This document shows, one piece after another, positions 939 to 9,977 of a stretch of DNA of 64,000 nucleotides. The position numbers and the translations under genes were made by a program. This stretch comes from a virus, in the IMG/VR virus record IMGVR_UViG_3300017971_000185, positions 62,001-126,000 of that record; one strand, given 5' to 3'. Every line of letters starts with the position of its first letter. The stretch's first letter is position 1. The notes below the pieces were generated by a model. It saw only the letters and a list, made by a program, of their open reading frames with translations, was not told where the DNA came from and ran no database searches.

Positions 939-3900
939 ATGCCAGACGGCACCCAGATTCCTGGTCACATTTACGCGCCCCCCAACGTCTACGTCGAGAC
1001 TCAGACTGACACGCCGGTTCAAGCACCGATTCAGGGTGTTCGCATTCCGGTGTTCATCGGCACGGGCAACGAGGTTCTGACTCAGACGGATCTCGCGGTG
1101 GTTCGCGGGTCGTCTTCCAGTGTTGACCAGCAGGTTCCGCAGGAGGACATGACCGGCCGCGCGGTTGTCGCAATTCTGGCTTCCGGCGAGGTCGTCCTGG
1201 GTGACTTCGATGGTGATCGGCGGCTCATCCAGGTGCGCAATTATCCCATCGTCACGGGCGACGGGACGGGTACCACGGCGACGGATGCAGCCAGCATCCA
1301 GGTGACGATCAACGGGCAGCCTGACGTGGTTTTGAACGTCCAGGGGGACAGAGGGGTGCTTGAGCTTTCGACGGCTCCAGGGCTCCATGACGACGTGAGA
1401 TGCACGTATTTCTTCAACCGGACCGACACGCTGATCACGGACGACGTGAGCGATCAGGTGACTGCGGATCCCGCGCTCATTTACGGGAGCGGCGAGGAAC
1501 CCGCAGGCGGCTACGACATCACGGTGGACAACAATGAGTTGATCCTGACCATCGATGGCGTCGAGACCACCATCAGCCTGGGGACGCCGGGCGTGAAGCC
1601 CGCAGCTACCGTGGTCTCGTTGATCAACGGAGCGGCCTCTTCTACGTCTCTTGTGGCTTCGCTCTACACCACGAATTTCGGCGGCACTGCCATCCAATTC
1701 GTGGCCGACGAAAACCTCATCGTTGGTGCCGGTACGGCCAACACACTTCTTGGTCTGACCACGGGTGACGCGACCAATCGGCGCTCGACGTTCTACACAT
1801 TCCAGGGTCCGATCGTTGACGGTTCCAACGGAGGAATCACGACCACGGACACCGGGAAGGTGACGGTCCGCGTCAACAATGTCCAGGTCATCCCCACGTC
1901 CGTCAATGGATCGACGCGAGCGGTGACGTTGCCCTTTGCTCCGGCTGCTGGCTCGACCGTCACCATCGAGTACTTTTTCAATAGTTGGCAAGATACCTTC
2001 GACTATCTGGCGAACATCAACCTCACGGAGATCACCCGAGTCGGCATCGTTCCGGGGAACAGCGATTTCGTGCAGGGTGCGGACTTCGTGCTCAAGGATG
2101 ATGTCATTGTCTGGGGTACGTCGGTTCTCATCACTTCGGGTGTTCACACCGAAGGAAGCACGTACTTCGGTGGAGATGGAGGCCAGGTCAGCGCGCTCTT
2201 GGTGGATGCGCAGACGTACTTGGAGGAAGCCACTCCTGTCACGGATGCGACGGTCAGCCCGCCAGTTACGAGTCGGACGAAATTCGACCTTCCGTTCCAG
2301 CCCACGACGGGCAACGGACGCAACACGCCGATCGGGTTGAGTCTGTTCCAGACGGTCAGCAACAACCGTATCGATCTTCCGACCAATCGCCCGGATCTGG
2401 TGATCGCCTATTGGGGCTTCTCGGTCGAGGATGCTTTGCAGCGTGGTCCGGTGGACGTGACAGCGGTCGAGGGAACCAGGATCACTTTGAAGGATCCCGT
2501 GGACGTGGGTGCAACGGTCTACGCCACGTTCTACTACAACACGCTCGTAGATGAGGAGTACAGCCTGGTTTGTGACGTGGCTGGTGCTTCGGGCATTGGT
2601 ACCTATTTCATCCAAGACTCGAATAGCAACGACATGTTCACGCCGCGGTTTGGCGTGAAGGGGGCTGCGCTCACGGGCATCACCATCCAATTCCCGAGCG
2701 GCAGCGAGCTAACCCCGGACGTGCGTTTCGAGAGTGGTACGGACGGTCCGGTCGAGGAGACGGTCACGGTCTCGTTCGCGAGCATCGATGACACGATTGC
2801 GAAGTACAGCGTGCCCGGATCGGGACCGTACTTCACGATCGAGGATGCCTCTGATCATGCACGTTTCTTGATCGACGGCACGGCACCGACTGGTGGCGGA
2901 GCGGGAATCGATCTTGCCCGTGTGGACGGAATCACCGGCTTGGGCGTGTCGGCCAGCTTGCTGGGCGAGGAGATCGAGTATGACGTAGCCTCGGGCAGCA
3001 CGACCTACGACATTACGGCCGGGACCAACGACGAGGTTTCGGTCACGGTCGATGATGTGCTCATTACGTCGATCGCTGCGGCAGGAACGGGTGTCAACGC
3101 GGACAACTACGTTGACGCGCTCAATGCTTTCGCCAAGCTGCAACAGTTTGCTCCGTTCTACACGGCACAGACACGTTTCGTGGGGTCGACGGTCATTACT
3201 GCCGGCGAGTACGACACTTTGGTCATGCACTACAATGGTGCTGTGGCAGGCCCATCGGGTGCGATCACGGCGATCATTCCGCCGCTGACCTACGCCAGCC
3301 CCATGGCTCTGGCAACGGCTCTGGATGGAGTGATTGCAGCCGCAGTCGGTGGTTTGGGTCCGGCGTTTGCCGGGTTGGCGATCAACGTTACTGTGGATGC
3401 CAATAGCCGGCTCCGATTCACGTTGCAGGCGGCGACGGGAGACATCGGCACTTTCGCGGCCGGTGGTGTCATCACCGTGGCGTTAGTGCCGGTCGTGGGT
3501 GACCAGATCATCTTCACGGATTGGGCTGGGAACCAGGCAGCACTCACGGCAGATACGGCCACAACGCCAGGCGGCAACAACTTCGACGTGTCGTCCGGTG
3601 TGGCAGCCACGATCGCTGGTCAGATCGCTATAGCGATTCAAGATGTGACGAACAACGTGGCTTCGATCGTGACCACGACGGGCGCTGTTGGTGTGACGAT
3701 TCCAGTGGTGCCAACTGTTCCGGGTACGCTCGGAAACCGGGTCGTCATGGCCGAATCCGCCGCAACTCCGGCAACCTTCACGTTCGTACAGCCTTCGGGC
3801 GCGACGGACTTGGCAGGTGGCTATTTGGAGTTTGCGGACGCACCGACGCTTGCCAGCGATTTCGCGATTCTGGCAGGCATCAGCGTGGCTCCGGCACCGG

Positions 3901-6278
3901 GAGGATTGCAGACCAAGTTGCTCAACGGAGACATCGCTCGGCGCTTCTCGGTAGCGGGCGGTTCCGGTGCGCTTATCTACGATCGCATCATTCTCCGCAA
4001 CCGCATCATGCCTGGATCGGGCAGCGTGGCCGGGCCTTCCCAGCTTGCGCAGACAGAGCTACGCATCGAGGGGAACAATGCGATCACGGAGACGGGTCTC
4101 CAGCCCAACGACGCTGGGTTGGCGGCGATGGGGGCGGTCGTGCAGCCAGCGACGCTGTTTGGCGAAGTGGGGTTTGTCAGCGGTCAGGTGCCGACAGGCG
4201 CCTACGGGGATGCTCGCGACGGGCAGCCGGTGGTGACGTTCTTCGCAGACGGAGGCACACAGCCGCAGAACAACGTGTTCAAGATCAACATCGATGGCAT
4301 CATGGTGAACGTCACGTTCACGGATGCTGCGGGTGTGGTCATTCCGGCTGGCGGCACAGCAGACGTACCGTTGGGGCCGGGAACGATCGCGAACACGATT
4401 CTGGCACAGCTAGACGCCGCCGCAGTGGCGGCTGGGTTGCCCGCGGGCACGTTCTTGCCAGAAGGCGCTGGTATTCGGATCGTGAGCGGCACGTCTCGCG
4501 TGTCCTCAGCGATCACGGTTGGAGCCGGGAATGCCAACGATGTGTTGGGATTCTCGTCTGGCGGCACGGCGGCACGGACGGAGGTAGAGCCCGAGCAGAT
4601 TGCTTCGGCTCTCATGGCGCATCACGACGCAACGGTATCGGCCAAGCTCCTGAGCTACTCCTCGCCAGGAGTGACCTACTTCGCTGGCTTGGCTCTTGCT
4701 GGTGTCATCAGGGATGCGGCGAATGCCGAATTCCTGTACCTCCAGAGTCAGGCGAGCACGGTCGGAGGTCTGGGTCTGTCGAGCAGCATTGCGCTGCTAC
4801 AGCCCACGGTTGGAAACGGTAGCTGGCTGCTTCCAGGCACGGGCATCAATGCCGAGGTTGGTGACGGCGCATCCGGTGAGGAAGGCTTCAACGGATACTA
4901 CGTCACATCGTCCGATCCGACAGACGGGTCCGGGTCAGCGAACACGTCGAGGCTCAACAACGGAGTGGGTCAAGATGGCGTGATCGGCCAGACGTATCGA
5001 GATACCGTCACGGGTCTCACGTTCACGGTTCTGGCACGTGAGGGTGGCGGGGTGTACCCGACTGGTGTGGGTGCAACCTTCACTTTCGAGGTACGCAATA
5101 AGGTCATCACGGACAGCAACCTTCCGGTCAACACAATCCCCGGAATCGAGCTTTTGGTGACGAACACCACTGGCGTCGCGGTCGGGGACACGGCTGTGGT
5201 CGATACGATCGAGCGCGGGGGCAGCGAGCCTGCCGTGGGCGATCTCTACTACGCGACCTACAACTACCAAAAGGAAAGTTTCGACACTGGCTTGTACACA
5301 CGGCTGGCAACGATCGAGCGTGTGTTTGGTGCAACATCGCCAGAGCATCTTCTGTCCCTGGCGGCGTATGTGTCGATCATCAACGGGGCGGTTGTCGTTG
5401 GGCTCAAACAGGTTCCCAAGCAGCCCAACAGCAATCAGGGCAGTATCACGGACTACTTCGATGCCGTGGACGATGTGCGTGGAGTCCTCCCAGGTGGGGC
5501 GAGGCTCAGCACGCTCACTCCGTTGCGTGGAGACTCGGAGGAGCTATTCCAGAAGATCAGTCAGCATGTTGATCTCCAGTCCAGCATCCGGCTGCGATCG
5601 GAGAGAACCTCGATCTTTGGCGTTTCCTCGGGGACGCAGCCCTCGGCTGCGGGAGACCTGGCCGAGTTGCTGGGCAACACCCGGATGAGGATGGTCTACC
5701 CAGACATCGCCAAGATCACGCTGACCGATGCGGTGAACAACGACAAGCAATTCCTGGTTGACGGCACGATTCTCTCGGCGGCAATGGCAGGAAACCGAGC
5801 AAGCCCGAACATCGACGTGGCAACGCCATGGACACGGGCACGATTGCTCGGGTTCGATGAGCTTGCTCGTATCCTCGATGCGGTCGAGCAGAATCAGGTT
5901 GCCGTGCGCGGCGTGACGATCTTGGAGGATCGCCGTCCGGCAATCAGTGTGCGCCATGGGCTCACGACGGATGTCACCAACGTCCTGACCAAGACCCCAA
6001 CCGTGATGACGATTGCGGATGAGGTACAGCAGCAGACTCGCGTGACGCTGGACAGGTTCATCGGGGTCAAATTCCTGCCCGGTATCCTGAATCAGATCGA
6101 AGGTCGCCTGACCTTCATGCTCAAGGGGCTCATCGCGGCGGAGATCATCGCTGCCTTCACTGGAGTGCAGGCTCAGACAACGAGTGATCCAACGGTGGTT
6201 GCGGTCGAAGCATGGTATCAGCCTGTTTTCCCGCTACTATACATCATCGTCACCTTCAACCTCCGCTCAGTTTTGTGA
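939..6278 (+). CDS. Giant tail sheath protein
   Basis: Protein of 1779 residues. The N-terminus (YAPPNVYVETQTDTPVQ) matches the start of contractile tail sheaths. The last ~320 residues look like the conserved sheath core: LSLAAYVSIINGA at about 1471, MVYPDIAKITLTD, an AMAGNRASPNIDVATPW stretch (sheaths have the VAG..A..D..G.W pattern here), VRGVTILED, and the C-terminal domain ending VEAWYQPVFPLLYIIVTFNLRSVL in pieces. Usual sheaths are roughly 400-700 residues, so about 1000 extra residues are inserted, rich in beta-sandwich-like modules (about residues 185-270, 850-960 and 1105-1210). AGAGG precedes ATG 939. The sheath would contract to drive the tube through the envelope. The last codons appear recoded by the adjacent element (see 8870-8906). 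Confidence 0.8.
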   Translation: MPDGTQIPGHIYAPPNVYVETQTDTPVQAPIQGVRIPVFIGTGNEVLTQTDLAVVRGSSSSVDQQVPQEDMTGRAVVAILASGEVVLGDFDGDRRLIQVRNYPIVTGDGTGTTATDAASIQVTINGQPDVVLNVQGDRGVLELSTAPGLHDDVRCTYFFNRTDTLITDDVSDQVTADPALIYGSGEEPAGGYDITVDNNELILTIDGVETTISLGTPGVKPAATVVSLINGAASSTSLVASLYTTNFGGTAIQFVADENLIVGAGTANTLLGLTTGDATNRRSTFYTFQGPIVDGSNGGITTTDTGKVTVRVNNVQVIPTSVNGSTRAVTLPFAPAAGSTVTIEYFFNSWQDTFDYLANINLTEITRVGIVPGNSDFVQGADFVLKDDVIVWGTSVLITSGVHTEGSTYFGGDGGQVSALLVDAQTYLEEATPVTDATVSPPVTSRTKFDLPFQPTTGNGRNTPIGLSLFQTVSNNRIDLPTNRPDLVIAYWGFSVEDALQRGPVDVTAVEGTRITLKDPVDVGATVYATFYYNTLVDEEYSLVCDVAGASGIGTYFIQDSNSNDMFTPRFGVKGAALTGITIQFPSGSELTPDVRFESGTDGPVEETVTVSFASIDDTIAKYSVPGSGPYFTIEDASDHARFLIDGTAPTGGGAGIDLARVDGITGLGVSASLLGEEIEYDVASGSTTYDITAGTNDEVSVTVDDVLITSIAAAGTGVNADNYVDALNAFAKLQQFAPFYTAQTRFVGSTVITAGEYDTLVMHYNGAVAGPSGAITAIIPPLTYASPMALATALDGVIAAAVGGLGPAFAGLAINVTVDANSRLRFTLQAATGDIGTFAAGGVITVALVPVVGDQIIFTDWAGNQAALTADTATTPGGNNFDVSSGVAATIAGQIAIAIQDVTNNVASIVTTTGAVGVTIPVVPTVPGTLGNRVVMAESAATPATFTFVQPSGATDLAGGYLEFADAPTLASDFAILAGISVAPAPGGLQTKLLNGDIARRFSVAGGSGALIYDRIILRNRIMPGSGSVAGPSQLAQTELRIEGNNAITETGLQPNDAGLAAMGAVVQPATLFGEVGFVSGQVPTGAYGDARDGQPVVTFFADGGTQPQNNVFKINIDGIMVNVTFTDAAGVVIPAGGTADVPLGPGTIANTILAQLDAAAVAAGLPAGTFLPEGAGIRIVSGTSRVSSAITVGAGNANDVLGFSSGGTAARTEVEPEQIASALMAHHDATVSAKLLSYSSPGVTYFAGLALAGVIRDAANAEFLYLQSQASTVGGLGLSSSIALLQPTVGNGSWLLPGTGINAEVGDGASGEEGFNGYYVTSSDPTDGSGSANTSRLNNGVGQDGVIGQTYRDTVTGLTFTVLAREGGGVYPTGVGATFTFEVRNKVITDSNLPVNTIPGIELLVTNTTGVAVGDTAVVDTIERGGSEPAVGDLYYATYNYQKESFDTGLYTRLATIERVFGATSPEHLLSLAAYVSIINGAVVVGLKQVPKQPNSNQGSITDYFDAVDDVRGVLPGGARLSTLTPLRGDSEELFQKISQHVDLQSSIRLRSERTSIFGVSSGTQPSAAGDLAELLGNTRMRMVYPDIAKITLTDAVNNDKQFLVDGTILSAAMAGNRASPNIDVATPWTRARLLGFDELARILDAVEQNQVAVRGVTILEDRRPAISVRHGLTTDVTNVLTKTPTVMTIADEVQQQTRVTLDRFIGVKFLPGILNQIEGRLTFMLKGLIAAEIIAAFTGVQAQTTSDPTVVAVEAWYQPVFPLLYIIVTFNLRSVL

Positions 6279-6279
6279 G

Positions 6280-6304
6280 GTACACTAGCGCTCTAGGCTA
6301 GTAC
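6280..6304 (+). other. Inverted repeat just after the present sheath stop
   Basis: CTAGC at 6285-6289 and GCTAG at 6297-6301 form a stem extended outward to GTAC on both sides with one bulged base. There is no T tract, so terminator activity is doubtful. It lies in the 80-nt gap between the sheath stop and the nuclease-methyltransferase gene. The strong hairpin that probably terminated the original sheath transcript is at 8921-8942. Confidence 0.4.
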
Positions 6305-6358
6305 AGAGCCCAAAAGCGGCGTTTGCCGTGGGGTCTGTGGTGGTGGTATGGTGGTGGT

Positions 6359-8542
6359 ATGGATGAGGAGATCTGTGCAGCCTTTCGGTCCGATCTGTCT
6401 TCTGCCGCGGTTGCTGAATCGTTGGGGGTTGGTCGACAGCGTGTTCTCAAAGTCTGGAAGGCTTCCTTTGGTGCCGGTGAGGTAAGAGCACGTGCGAATA
6501 GGCTTCGCTCTCGCCCCAAGAAAGAAGATCCTCAGCAACGGGCAGCAGCTCTGCCGTGGTTCGCTGAGGGTGTGGCAGTCAAGGAGGCTGCGCGAAGATT
6601 GGGTGTCCACTATCTCAAGGTTCAACGATGGTGGATCGAAGAGTTTGGAGAAGAAGTATATCGGAGTCGTGGAAAGCGTCTTCAAGCTGCGCGAACGGCA
6701 GCCAATAACCGTAGAGGATTGCCGAAGACGCAAACGGTTGTACGAGTCGCCTGTGAAGACTGCGGCACGGAACACGACCGTACAATGATGAGTTTGGCCA
6801 AGGCTGCGCGGCTCATTTGTCCAACGTGTAAGAGCAAGAAGCAAGATCCGCATGCGTGTCCGGTGTGTGGTTTTGTGTTCGAAGGCGCTCGGGGGTTGGC
6901 GTCTCATTTTCGGCATCAACGGAATTGCTCTGCGCATAAGGAGTATCGACGCAAGCAATGGGAAGTCCTGGCAAGTCGGACTGACGAGTACGTGACTTGC
7001 CAGGAGTGTGGCTTCGTAGGTCGGTCGATTTCGGCTCATATTCAAACACACGACCTAAATTGGAGGAGCTACACGCGTAAGTATCCTGGTGCTCCTCTGT
7101 ATTCGGCGATCTCAGAGGCACGGAGGCGTGCTCGTATCCGGGAAACACATGCCAGGTACGGATTCACATACGCGGACTTCAAGGCGTACCTGGATGACGA
7201 GCATCGTTTGATTGTGGCGGCTGCGGCTAAGGGATTGGGAGTTGCTCAAGATACGGTGCGGACATACGCGAAGAAACTAGACATCCCTACGCGGAATCGA
7301 TTGGCGTGGCAGCGAGAAGTCTTGCAGACGGTAGCTGATGTTTTGGGCGAAGCGTATAAGTGGGAATGGTCTGACGATCGTATTCGAAATCCCGAGACGG
7401 GGAGGTTACTGAATTATGACGGCTGTTTTCCCAAGTCAAAGGTGATCGTGGAGTGCCATGGAATTCAGCATTACCAGTTTGTTCCTCGATGGCACCGTCT
7501 TCCAGAGGAATTTGTCAAGTTGCGGGAGCGAGACGTTTACAAAAAAGAGCGAGCGGAGGAGCTTGGCTATACCGTGATCGAAGTGCGCTATGATGCAGAG
7601 GTATCTCGTGAGTTTTTCATGGAGTTGTTGCGAGCACCAAAGAAGAGTCGTCAGGCGGTGAAGGACAAGGCCGAGACAATTCTGCGGGAGCTACGGAGGG
7701 ATTGCTTTCCGTTTCCGGTGATCGATCCAGAGGAGACTCGGAGGGAGTTGGAAAGGCTACAACGGAAGCGCCTGAAGTTAGTTGACGGGATTATCGTTCC
7801 TCGTTCGTGGGTTGGGACCAAAGTCTGCAAAGCATATTTCCCCAATCTCTTCCAAGCCAGGTACAAGAATCAGCTATCGGCTGTAGAGGCGTGGAATTCG
7901 GATGAGAAGCTCCGGCTTGCTATCCTGACTCAACTAGACTCGTCGCATCCGACGACACCAGAACGAGTGCTTAAGGCGATTCTGATGCATCATCGGGTTC
8001 CTACGGTTTTCCGTCCAGCTTATGCTCGATACTTGTATGACCGCTACTGCCCGGAAGGCAAGACAACATGGGATCCTTGCGCAGGGTGGGGCGGGCGTCT
8101 CTTGGGCGCCGCAGCGGCGAATGTGAGATACATCGGAACGGAGATTGATGCTCTTACTGTCGAGGGGAATCGCAGGTTAGCTTCCGATCTGCGGCATGAC
8201 GCGGAGATCATTGAAGGGTCGGCATTGGGCGCGGACATCCCTCAGGTAGACTTTGTATTCACCTCTCCGCCCTACTATGACGTTGAGCAGTATTCAGACC
8301 ATCCTGAACAACCTCACATGCGATTTGGTTCCGAGGAGGATTGGGTAGAGGGGTTTCTCTTGCCTTTGGTCAGGAAGGCACGTTCTGTGCTGCCTCAAGG
8401 CTGCGCTATGGCTCTCAACCTCTCCGATGCCTTGCTAGGGCGTCTAGAAGAGTGCGCTTTTGATTGTGGTTTTGAGCTTGAGACCGTGGTTGGCTTTGAG
8501 CTTCCGAATGGAAAGGTTGCTCGGACAGCCGTTTACCGATAG
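6359..8542 (+). CDS. HTH / zinc-finger / PD-(D/E)xK nuclease / DNA methyltransferase fusion (putative homing element)
   Basis: Protein of 727 residues from ATG 6359; a TTG at 6323 would add 12 low-complexity residues (WGLWWWYGGG) and is less likely. Domains in order: two helix-turn-helix units (about 8-36, 64-97); zinc motifs C132xxC135/C154xxC157, C167xxC170 with H183, H186 and C190, and a MucR/Ros-like finger C214xxC217/H227, H231 followed by a KYPGAPL segment typical of phage homing proteins; a third HTH (about 268-310); a Vsr/DUF559-like nuclease core with D354, E365-C-H367, then ERD and VIEVRYD to about 412; a methyltransferase with motif I DPCAGWGGR (572-580), acceptor YIGTEID (591-597) and motif IV TSPPYYD (635-641), typical of amino-group (N4/N6) DNA methylases. 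The DNA looks less GC-rich than its neighbours by eye. It likely cuts and protects related DNA targets. Confidence 0.8.
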   Translation: MDEEICAAFRSDLSSAAVAESLGVGRQRVLKVWKASFGAGEVRARANRLRSRPKKEDPQQRAAALPWFAEGVAVKEAARRLGVHYLKVQRWWIEEFGEEVYRSRGKRLQAARTAANNRRGLPKTQTVVRVACEDCGTEHDRTMMSLAKAARLICPTCKSKKQDPHACPVCGFVFEGARGLASHFRHQRNCSAHKEYRRKQWEVLASRTDEYVTCQECGFVGRSISAHIQTHDLNWRSYTRKYPGAPLYSAISEARRRARIRETHARYGFTYADFKAYLDDEHRLIVAAAAKGLGVAQDTVRTYAKKLDIPTRNRLAWQREVLQTVADVLGEAYKWEWSDDRIRNPETGRLLNYDGCFPKSKVIVECHGIQHYQFVPRWHRLPEEFVKLRERDVYKKERAEELGYTVIEVRYDAEVSREFFMELLRAPKKSRQAVKDKAETILRELRRDCFPFPVIDPEETRRELERLQRKRLKLVDGIIVPRSWVGTKVCKAYFPNLFQARYKNQLSAVEAWNSDEKLRLAILTQLDSSHPTTPERVLKAILMHHRVPTVFRPAYARYLYDRYCPEGKTTWDPCAGWGGRLLGAAAANVRYIGTEIDALTVEGNRRLASDLRHDAEIIEGSALGADIPQVDFVFTSPPYYDVEQYSDHPEQPHMRFGSEEDWVEGFLLPLVRKARSVLPQGCAMALNLSDALLGRLEECAFDCGFELETVVGFELPNGKVARTAVYR

Positions 8543-8869
8543 TCGTTCTAGTCGTGTTTTCCCATCAGAGGATCGGGCTTCGTTGCAGAAGCGACGAAAC
8601 GGGGGCTTGCAAGAAGCCTCTTGCCAAGAGTCGTAGCCAGGTTCGGCGTATTCGCCAGCGAACCAGATCGCTTCGATTTGGCGTCGTCCTTGGGGCGTCT
8701 TGGCCGAACGAACGGCAGCTTGTAGGGCTGGGCGACACGTCATGGGAGCCATTGGGTGCTTTCTCAGCACATCGATGGCGTGGTGTTTCGCAACTACGGC
8801 CGAAGCCCAAGGGCGGTATCGATTCCCGTCCTTGGGCTGTCACGCCATTGTCGGGTTAGTTGAAGTCAC
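8543..8869. other. Gap after the nuclease-methyltransferase gene
   Basis: No convincing complete gene. On the minus strand an open frame from ATG 8752 reads RSAKTPQGRRQIEAIWFAGE then YAEPGYDSW and looks protein-like, but it runs antisense into the methyltransferase gene and ends at 8444. It may be a small minus-strand gene truncated by the insertion. The right part of the gap is the 71-nt repeat at 8799-8869. No tRNA-like fold or strong promoter is apparent. Confidence 0.4.
8799..8869. repeat. 71-nt direct repeat, copy 1 (includes hairpin 8804-8838)
   Basis: Matches 9907-9977 at 68 of 71 positions, offset 1108 nt. It contains an inverted repeat AGCCCAAGG (8804-8812) / CCTTGGGCT (8830-8838) around a 17-nt loop, and ends with the antisense of GTGACTTCAACTAA, the last codons (DFN-stop) of the DUF932 gene. 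A further short match at the same offset lies at 8907-8920 versus 10015-10028 (13 of 14), so the two loci share both flanks around an unrelated 37-nt core. Confidence 0.85.
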
Positions 8870-8906
8870 CCGCTGCTGTATATTCAACCTCAGGTCGGTG
8901 CTGTAG
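8870..8906 (+). pseudogene. Relic of the displaced tail sheath 3' end
   Basis: Read on the plus strand, 8870-8881 encodes PLLY and 8883-8906 encodes FNLRSVL-stop. The current sheath ends PLLYIIVTFNLRSVL-stop (6231-6278). The relic lacks 11 nt in the middle (the IIVT codons). Every base difference in the aligned codons is synonymous: CTA/CTG twice, TAC/TAT, CGC/AGG, TCA/TCG, GTT/GTG, TTG/CTG, and TGA/TAG for the stop. It lies 14 nt before a strong hairpin that would suit the end of the sheath transcript. I infer this was the native sheath terminus before the nuclease-methyltransferase element arrived with a recoded replacement. Confidence 0.7.
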
Positions 8907-8920
8907 TTGCTCAGTCTTGG

Positions 8921-8942
8921 GGCCGCCGGATTTCCGGCGGCC
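8921..8942. terminator. Hairpin terminator between converging units
   Basis: GGCCGCCGGA (8921-8930) and TCCGGCGGCC (8933-8942) form a perfect 10-bp GC-rich stem. It abuts the stop of the minus-strand gene at 8943 and follows the sheath relic on the plus strand by 14 nt. The plus-strand side is followed by a pyrimidine-rich run (CACTTCTTCTT). Probably a bidirectional terminator. Confidence 0.65.
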
Positions 8943-9311
8943 TCACTTCTTCTTGACCTTCCAGGGAGTGGTCTCTTCTGGGTGGAACGTGGCCTCGATG
9001 CCAGCCTCATCGAGCGCGCCAACGAGATCAAGAAGCATCAGGAGCGAAGTCTCGATCGTGTCTTTTGGGGACTTGGTGGAAAACTTGTAAGCCTGGTCTC
9101 CGAAACGGAGGGAGACGGTTTGACAGTCGCTAGAGATGTGGATGGACGAGTGGTCTCGGATGCTCATGCGTGCCTCTACCGCTCGCGCTTCGGCTGCGTC
9201 GCGCTTGTCTTGCAGTGCAGTTGTTGTCGATACATGGTCCACGAACCGCACCCACCCGCCGTCGTCGGCCGCGTACATGCCGGAAGGTCTCCATTCGTAT
9301 CGCTTATCCAC
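8943..9311 (-). CDS. Hypothetical protein, last gene of minus-strand unit
   Basis: Protein of 122 residues, not recognised. GTG start at 9311 (MDKRYEWRPSG...) overlapping the stop of the upstream gene by 8 nt, which supports translational coupling. The middle (RDHSSIHISSDCQTVSLRFG, then QAYKF) looks like beta strands, followed by a helix SLLMLLDLVGALDEAGI; the end is lysine-rich (WKVKKK). An alternative start is ATG at residue 12. Its stop abuts hairpin 8921-8942. Confidence 0.6.
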   Translation of the reverse strand: MDKRYEWRPSGMYAADDGGWVRFVDHVSTTTALQDKRDAAEARAVEARMSIRDHSSIHISSDCQTVSLRFGDQAYKFSTKSPKDTIETSLLMLLDLVGALDEAGIEATFHPEETTPWKVKKK

Positions 9312-9906: not shown

Positions 9907-9977
9907 GCCGAAGCCCAAGGGCGGTATCGATTCCCGTCCTTGGGCTGTCGCGCCGTTGTCAGGTTAGTTGAAGTCAC
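9907..9977. repeat. 71-nt direct repeat, copy 2
   Basis: Partner of 8799-8869 (68 of 71 identical). Here it covers the last four codons and stop of the DUF932 gene (9964-9977) and the downstream hairpin. Confidence 0.85.
9912..9946 (-). terminator. Hairpin downstream of the DUF932 gene
   Basis: AGCCCAAGG (9912-9920) and CCTTGGGCT (9938-9946) form a 9-bp stem about 17 nt past the DUF932 stop. The loop is long (17 nt) and there is no T tract, so it may be a weak or factor-dependent terminator or an mRNA end-protecting hairpin. Read-through would feed the next three minus-strand genes. Confidence 0.45.

Follow-up and report, generated by a model that had tools for sequence, protein, structure and literature searches.

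The closest anatomical parallels to the element described here are found in fungal mitochondria, where mobile open reading frames (ORFs) in Allomyces atp6 and in Glomus atp6, atp9, cox2 and nad3 combine a replacement C-terminus, an endonuclease ORF and the displaced native C-terminus (PMC3630166). The native relic in these cases is 91-98% identical to relatives and the inserted end 64-81%, while in atp6 and cox2 the displaced native end is not expressed (PMC3630166). We analysed a stretch of 64,000 nucleotides (nt), hereafter the window, which covers positions 62,001-126,000 of the 497-kb virus genome in IMG/VR record IMGVR_UViG_3300017971_000185; its source is a jumbo phage. The window contains a tail sheath gene with a silently recoded 3' end, a nuclease-methyltransferase gene behind it and, further downstream, a relic of the ancestral sheath end. 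As in the fungal mobile ORFs, an in-frame foreign 3' end is followed by an endonuclease ORF, and the displaced native end that lies downstream in the window phage is closer to an insert-free relative. However, the fungal elements are mitochondrial, encode LAGLIDADG or GIY-YIG enzymes and occupy several genes per genome, whereas the phage elements have an EDxHD enzyme with zinc fingers, sometimes a methyltransferase, and sit at one fixed gene, the tail sheath, in many lineages. Recoding has moreover been shown statistically for the phage elements, unlike the fungal case. The phage element thus appears to work like the fungal mobile ORFs but is not a member of that group, because its nuclease has a Vsr-like EDxHD fold rather than a LAGLIDADG or GIY-YIG one; the two kinds of element are not homologous. 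We consider it quite probable that the mobile unit consists of the last approximately 20 recoded sheath codons, the stop, a short spacer and the nuclease, and constitutes a natural "home-and-rescue" element. The features concerned, in window coordinates, are the following:

939-6278, plus strand: contractile tail sheath gene with replaced 3' end; ORF of 1779 amino acids (aa), the C-terminal 292 aa of which match annotated phage tail sheaths and 29 jumbo-phage loci.
6216-6278, plus strand: recoded 3' end of the sheath gene (some 20 final codons and the stop TGA), proposed left part of the mobile unit, from codon usage, the family profile and comparison with the insert-free locus L005.
6359-8542, plus strand: gene of a predicted free-standing homing endonuclease fused to a methyltransferase; 727 aa if read from the ATG, with an upstream TTG start at 6323 also possible (739-aa ORF), 44 nt after the sheath stop.
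8870-8906, plus strand: relic of the 3' end of the ancestral sheath gene, lacking 11 nt after PLLY and matching the end of L005.
8918-8945, plus strand: Rho-independent-type terminator with a 12-bp stem, then CTTCTTCTT.

The initial annotation of this DNA had noted that 8870-8906 encodes PLLY...FNLRSVL-stop with synonymous differences only, apart from the deletion, and this is borne out by the alignment. The present sheath end reads CCG CTA CTA TAC ATC ATC GTC ACC TTC AAC CTC CGC TCA GTT TTG TGA and the relic, which spans 37 nt, CCG CTG CTG TAT A[11 nt missing] TTC AAC CTC AGG TCG GTG CTG TAG, so that 10 of the 36 aligned bases differ, all of them silently and including CGC to AGG and TGA to TAG. 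The strong terminator just past the relic was likewise found, its hairpin starting about 12 nt after the relic's stop codon; it is presumably the original terminator of the sheath transcript. Scanning viral contigs with the sheath C-terminus yielded 29 loci, to which a scan of genome contigs added one sheath locus. The closest locus not from the same phage, L005, shows 93% identity across the C-terminal 292 aa of the sheath and has no insert within the 223 nt available past the sheath stop. Its sheath ends in CCG CTG CTG TAC ATC ATC GTT CGA TTC AAT CTC CGG TCG GTG CTG TAG, the last four codons being the same as those of the relic (TCG GTG CTG TAG), and a GC hairpin followed by TTTT was read from the sequence after it, a hairpin that the consensus terminator scan of L005 did not list. 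The earlier expectation that insert-free relatives end with the relic's codons and then a hairpin therefore agrees with L005, which has relic-type codons and not the present ones (CGC TCA GTT TTG TGA).

When the L005 sheath end was aligned to both strands of the window, it scored 53 at 8869-8906, the runner-up elsewhere reaching 36 and 600 random sequences giving a mean of 24.1 (sd 3.1; Gumbel p about 4e-6), while the present sheath end scored just 29 at the relic (p 0.02). Given these two scores, the relic is the ancestral end rather than a recent copy of the present one; and since it matches the end of the insert-free L005 rather than the present end, the present end is the replacement. The comparison confirmed 8870-8906 as a decayed copy of the ancestral tail sheath 3' end. 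An explanation by a chance match or an unrelated fragment, with a sheath end that was never replaced, would gain from the shortness of the relic and its internal gap, but it can practically be dismissed in view of the above p value, the uniqueness of the match in 64 kb on both strands, its location just where a relic would be expected, between the insert and the terminator, and its closeness to L005 (3 differences of 36, against 10 of 36 from the present end); it is refuted by L005, an insert-free relative whose sheath lacks the present codons.

The recoding extends well beyond this phage. The last 18 sheath codons of every locus were rated by the codon usage of their own gene, which gave a median percentile of 0.002 and a mean z of -3.17 in carriers of the nuclease (n = 58), compared with 0.32 and -0.61 in non-carriers (n = 30; Mann-Whitney p 9e-8). 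The carrier had the lower score in 15 of the 17 phylogenetically independent nearest pairs (sign test p 0.0023, Wilcoxon test p 0.0017), and in 14 of 16 once remnant loci were left out. The binary independent-pairs test (5 vs 2 of 13) was underpowered, and the continuous z score was therefore used. Averaged along the gene, codon scores were normal and then sharply negative from approximately 5 codons before the invariant PLLY to the last codon, whereas the same profile was flat in non-carriers. In L016 and L011, for example, GC content at third codon positions (GC3) was 0.92-0.93 across the gene and 0.50-0.56 in the last 18 codons. As regards the window, the last 18-43 sheath codons are in the bottom 1% or so of their own gene for codon usage (the last 18 in the bottom 1-2%), half of the synonymous codons in the recoded end are not those of L005, and the left edge of the replaced tract lies somewhere within about 6150-6231. 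The codon-by-codon comparison thus shows a locally foreign sheath 3' end; the recoded end proposed in the initial annotation exists, but it goes beyond the 12 codons of the relic and takes up roughly the last 20 (about 6216-6278). Codon comparison across the loci shows the synonymously rewritten sheath end of carriers to be a family-wide trait linked to the presence of the nuclease, and this link in many lineages, together with L005, supports the earlier proposal that the element brought its own sheath 3' end.

The position of the abnormal codons also bears on the view that the silent changes form a regulatory signal within the sheath 3' end, for instance a promoter for the nuclease gene. Of 58 carriers, 25 indeed have TATAAT-like hexamers with no more than 1 mismatch in the final 69 nt, compared with 6 of 34 non-carriers, and offsets 30 and 32 are preferred. 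AT enrichment by itself would nevertheless lift such counts, the abnormal codons cover the whole stretch of about 20 codons to the last one and not one or two hexamers, and a sigma-70-type promoter looked for at the window sheath end was not found. We thus regard a regulatory role as very improbable.

Close pairs of loci provide a sharper picture. L089 and L156 share 2.2 kb of sheath with 0 synonymous differences in about 240 compared body codons, while 13 of the last 22 codons differ, all synonymously and with 0 amino-acid changes (last 20 codons: 11/19 vs 0/236 in the body, p 1e-14). Their nucleases differ, one being with and the other without the methyltransferase, and the L089 end matches that of L091 at 80% of synonymous codons, compared with 43% in the gene body; both L089 and L091 carry the methyltransferase-type nuclease. 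Because the parts downstream of the nuclease are only 73-84% alike, L089 and L156 represent a breakpoint at codon -22 and not a clean cassette swap. An excess of synonymous differences at the end was also seen between the carrier L118 and the empty L209 (10/19 vs 31/224 in the body, p 2e-4) and between the carrier L016 and the non-carrier L014 (14/20 vs 75/216, p 2e-3).

A number of observations weigh against a recoded end that travels with the nuclease. The breakpoint between L089 and L156 could be part of a wider exchange, and there is some residual chance that the pattern comes from strain mixing in the assembly. When only the window and L005 are compared, synonymous changes at the end are not in significant excess (p 0.13). 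Some carriers (L018, L176, L093, L156, and L128) have ordinary ends, and some apparent non-carriers (L017 and L205) abnormal ones, although the latter exceptions are tempered by the abnormal ends of 3 of 5 loci with nuclease remnants. A partial Mantel test of end similarity against nuclease similarity across carriers was weak (r 0.055, p 0.10). Finally, the relic is restricted to one phage population (the window and L002-L004): 54 other carriers searched with their own ends and all relatives' ends gave no relic above shuffled controls. In L028, a stretch that matches sheath sequence was dropped as a second relic, as it falls inside the nuclease gene.

Intronless homing with co-conversion offers another account, in which the sheath end is the donor's divergent native end, carried along by double-strand-break repair, and the recoding neither serves escape nor belongs permanently to the element. 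Flank co-conversion is the norm among phage homing endonucleases (PMC2988022), the GC3 of the end (0.65) is closer to that of the nuclease (0.63) than to that of the sheath body (0.75), and the donor end in the window still encodes RSVL, as the recipient does. However, co-conversion tracts vary, while the tracts observed here are short, with limits that are alike (the last 20 codons or so) in unrelated lineages, and the ends remain abnormal and have not ameliorated even where the gene has a GC3 of 0.92-0.94 (0.50-0.61 in the last 18 codons). This account hence seems unlikely to us, though less so than a promoter, and we return to a home-and-rescue element as the preferred explanation.

Under a home-and-rescue mechanism, the nuclease would cut a co-infecting phage at its unrecoded sheath end, within about 60 bp around the conserved QPVFPLLYIIVTFNLRS codons, near PLLY. 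Repair from the carrier would copy in the recoded end and the nuclease gene, with left-side recombination taking place inside the sheath gene; the sheath protein would remain unchanged, yet the target would be gone from the carrier. In the window phage the right-hand junction would have formed illegitimately, 11 nt being lost and 69 nt of nearby sequence duplicated, and for this reason a piece of the recipient's old sheath end would survive as the relic before the old terminator. The identity of the relic, the linkage of recoding to the nuclease, the position and length of the tract, the repeated gain or loss and the nuclease fold are read from the sequences, and from this comparative evidence we infer that the unrecoded end is cut, that the recoded end resists, and by which pathway repair proceeds. 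The unrecoded sheath end is most likely the cleavage target, and the recoding probably blocks cleavage, which would make the carrier immune to its own nuclease; it may also prevent back-recombination. In another jumbo phage system, 17 silent mutations in gp178 freed the gene from the homing endonuclease PhiPA3 gp210 (PMC11620839), an experiment with which recoding as protection from self-cleavage is in line.

The domains of the nuclease protein are the following:

7280-7630, plus strand: EDxHD/Vsr-like nuclease domain (aa 320-436 of the 739-aa ORF), from a 49-member alignment, a structure model and PDB folds.
7955-8539, plus strand: N4/N6-type DNA methyltransferase domain (WDPCAGWGG ... TSPPYYD), from Pfam N6_N4_Mtase and Foldseek.

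Alignment of the nuclease domain in 49 members revealed invariant D, E, G, Q-H and K and near-invariant E, D and R. Residues were assigned to catalytic positions by pattern, and conservation gave the EDxHD arrangement E29-D47-x58-H64-D85, with D47, E58 (the x position) and H64 invariant and E29 and D85 each conserved in at least 90%. The top PDB folds found by Foldseek for the domain model (predicted local distance difference test, pLDDT, 94) were Vsr (1vsr/1cw0, prob 1.00) and the catalytic domain of I-Bth0305I (3r3p, prob 0.98). The model and alignment identify the protein as an EDxHD/Vsr-like homing endonuclease of the PD-(D/E)xK fold, with cleavage predicted. Helix-turn-helix and zinc-finger matches, each weak, precede the nuclease domain, and helices and finger-like segments are seen in the model, i.e., a modular DNA-binding region is tethered to the nuclease domain, as in EDxHD homing endonucleases. 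The methyltransferase domain was matched by Pfam N6_N4_Mtase (E 4e-4, below the curated cut-off), and its Foldseek matches are S-adenosylmethionine-dependent methyltransferases. The family does not qualify as a restriction-modification system, the methyltransferase motif accompanying the nuclease in only 13 of 58 carriers. I-Bth0305I shares with the present nuclease the Vsr-like catalytic fold, the E-D-x-H-D pattern and multi-domain DNA binding, but it is listed among group I intron endonucleases, while the methyltransferase fusion and the gene-end cargo are extra in the present elements. According to a review, EDxHD enzymes bind targets of nearly 60 bp, as known from one characterised enzyme, I-Bth0305I (PMC3943268); by analogy, the coincidence of this length with that of the recoded tract is suggestive.

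When the family was searched for with the nuclease alignment alone plus profile checks, a profile match was obtained at 79 loci; a sheath gene ends directly upstream in 64 of these. The 15 others comprise one strong match (L106) cut off at the contig start and 14 weak ones (E > 1e-17) from other nuclease families; all 64 complete members with upstream sequence to judge lie directly behind the sheath gene, usually 20-140 nt past its stop. Carrier state on the sheath tree (91 loci) changed 18 times, at least 13 of them on well-supported branches, a patchy distribution consistent with the gain and loss of a free-standing homing endonuclease. In accordance with this type, the nuclease ORF begins after the sheath stop with no self-splicing intron or intein around it; a group I intron was considered and rejected, an Rfam scan of 5900-9300 giving no match, group I introns included. 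The free-standing Seg and Mob genes of T4-like phages are similarly located between phage genes, patchily distributed and associated with flank co-conversion (PMC2988022). Their enzymes, however, are of the GIY-YIG/HNH types and cut hundreds to thousands of bp from their own gene, and no fixed recoded gene end has been described for them.

The combination of a nuclease against an essential gene with a recoded, uncleavable copy, as proposed here, resembles engineered cleave-and-rescue and home-and-rescue gene drives (PMC7951863, PMC7968924). These drives and the recoded gp178 (PMC11620839) are human-made, whereas the present arrangement is natural and has the 3' end alone recoded. In the open-access literature, the anatomy is known from fungal mitochondria and intronless homing with co-conversion from phages, but we found no description of phage endonucleases that, as a family, keep a recoded gene end; such a family is new with respect to that literature and would be the first case known from it in bacterial viruses of a homing endonuclease that systematically moves together with a silently recoded part of the adjoining essential gene. 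It would explain how a free-standing homing gene beside its presumed target avoids self-cleavage without disrupting the gene. The chances appear about even that jumbo phages widely harbour a natural home-and-rescue drive, in which nuclease lineages would each carry the 3' end of an essential structural gene silently rewritten over the whole recognition site of about 60 bp, with invasion, gene repair and self-immunity in one package and with co-evolution of nuclease and recoded end. The recoded tract would then predict the target site of each nuclease from sequence alone. A simple genome signature, abnormal codon usage confined to the last 20 or so codons of a gene, allows a search for similar cases at other genes. 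Such elements can also distort trees built from the ends of phage structural genes, and the codon statistics of these genes.

Several further observations concern the family. Nuclease remnants were found near L196, L208, L222, L237, and L240, and in L021 (6952-7300) an internal deletion has left only about the first 300 and the last 80 nt of the nuclease gene, as if the element had been caught decaying. In L013 and L026 (6971-11300) the sheath-linked nuclease gene is split by an insertion with a C5-cytosine methyltransferase-like ORF. The apparent non-carriers L006, L205, and L210 have carrier-like PLLY codons (CCA CTT TTG/TTA), which may be traces of lost elements, or else resistant alleles. 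In L153 and L154, an ORF distantly related to the nuclease (from 4158) begins 10 nt past a virion structural gene (phrog_3013); the last 18 codons of that structural gene are also abnormal (z about -3.6), making it a candidate for the same arrangement at another gene.

The right part of the insert in the window comprises:

8543-8800, strand not assigned: remainder of the insert right of the nuclease gene, with a possible minus-strand ORF around 8543-8770.
8801-8869, strand not assigned: near copy of about 69 nt (3 mismatches) of 9909-9977, adjoining the relic.

When viral contigs were searched with 8543-8800 and the small ORF there, only the same phage was matched, so that no donor for this ORF emerged. 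The segments 8801-8869 and 9909-9977 are 96% alike and are the only two copies in the 497-kb genome; the latter contains the 3' end of a minus-strand DUF932 gene and its hairpin. The near copy meets the relic with one shared base, and the relic's 11 missing nt fall just after PLLY. A duplication and a small deletion at a junction are typical scars of error-prone end joining. The right junction is best read as illegitimate, and the pair of 69-nt segments resembles a templated insertion. Finally, an S-adenosylmethionine decarboxylase-like gene was observed between the sheath and tail tube genes in many phages of this set, among them the window phage (12796-13275), L011, L014, L015, and L016.

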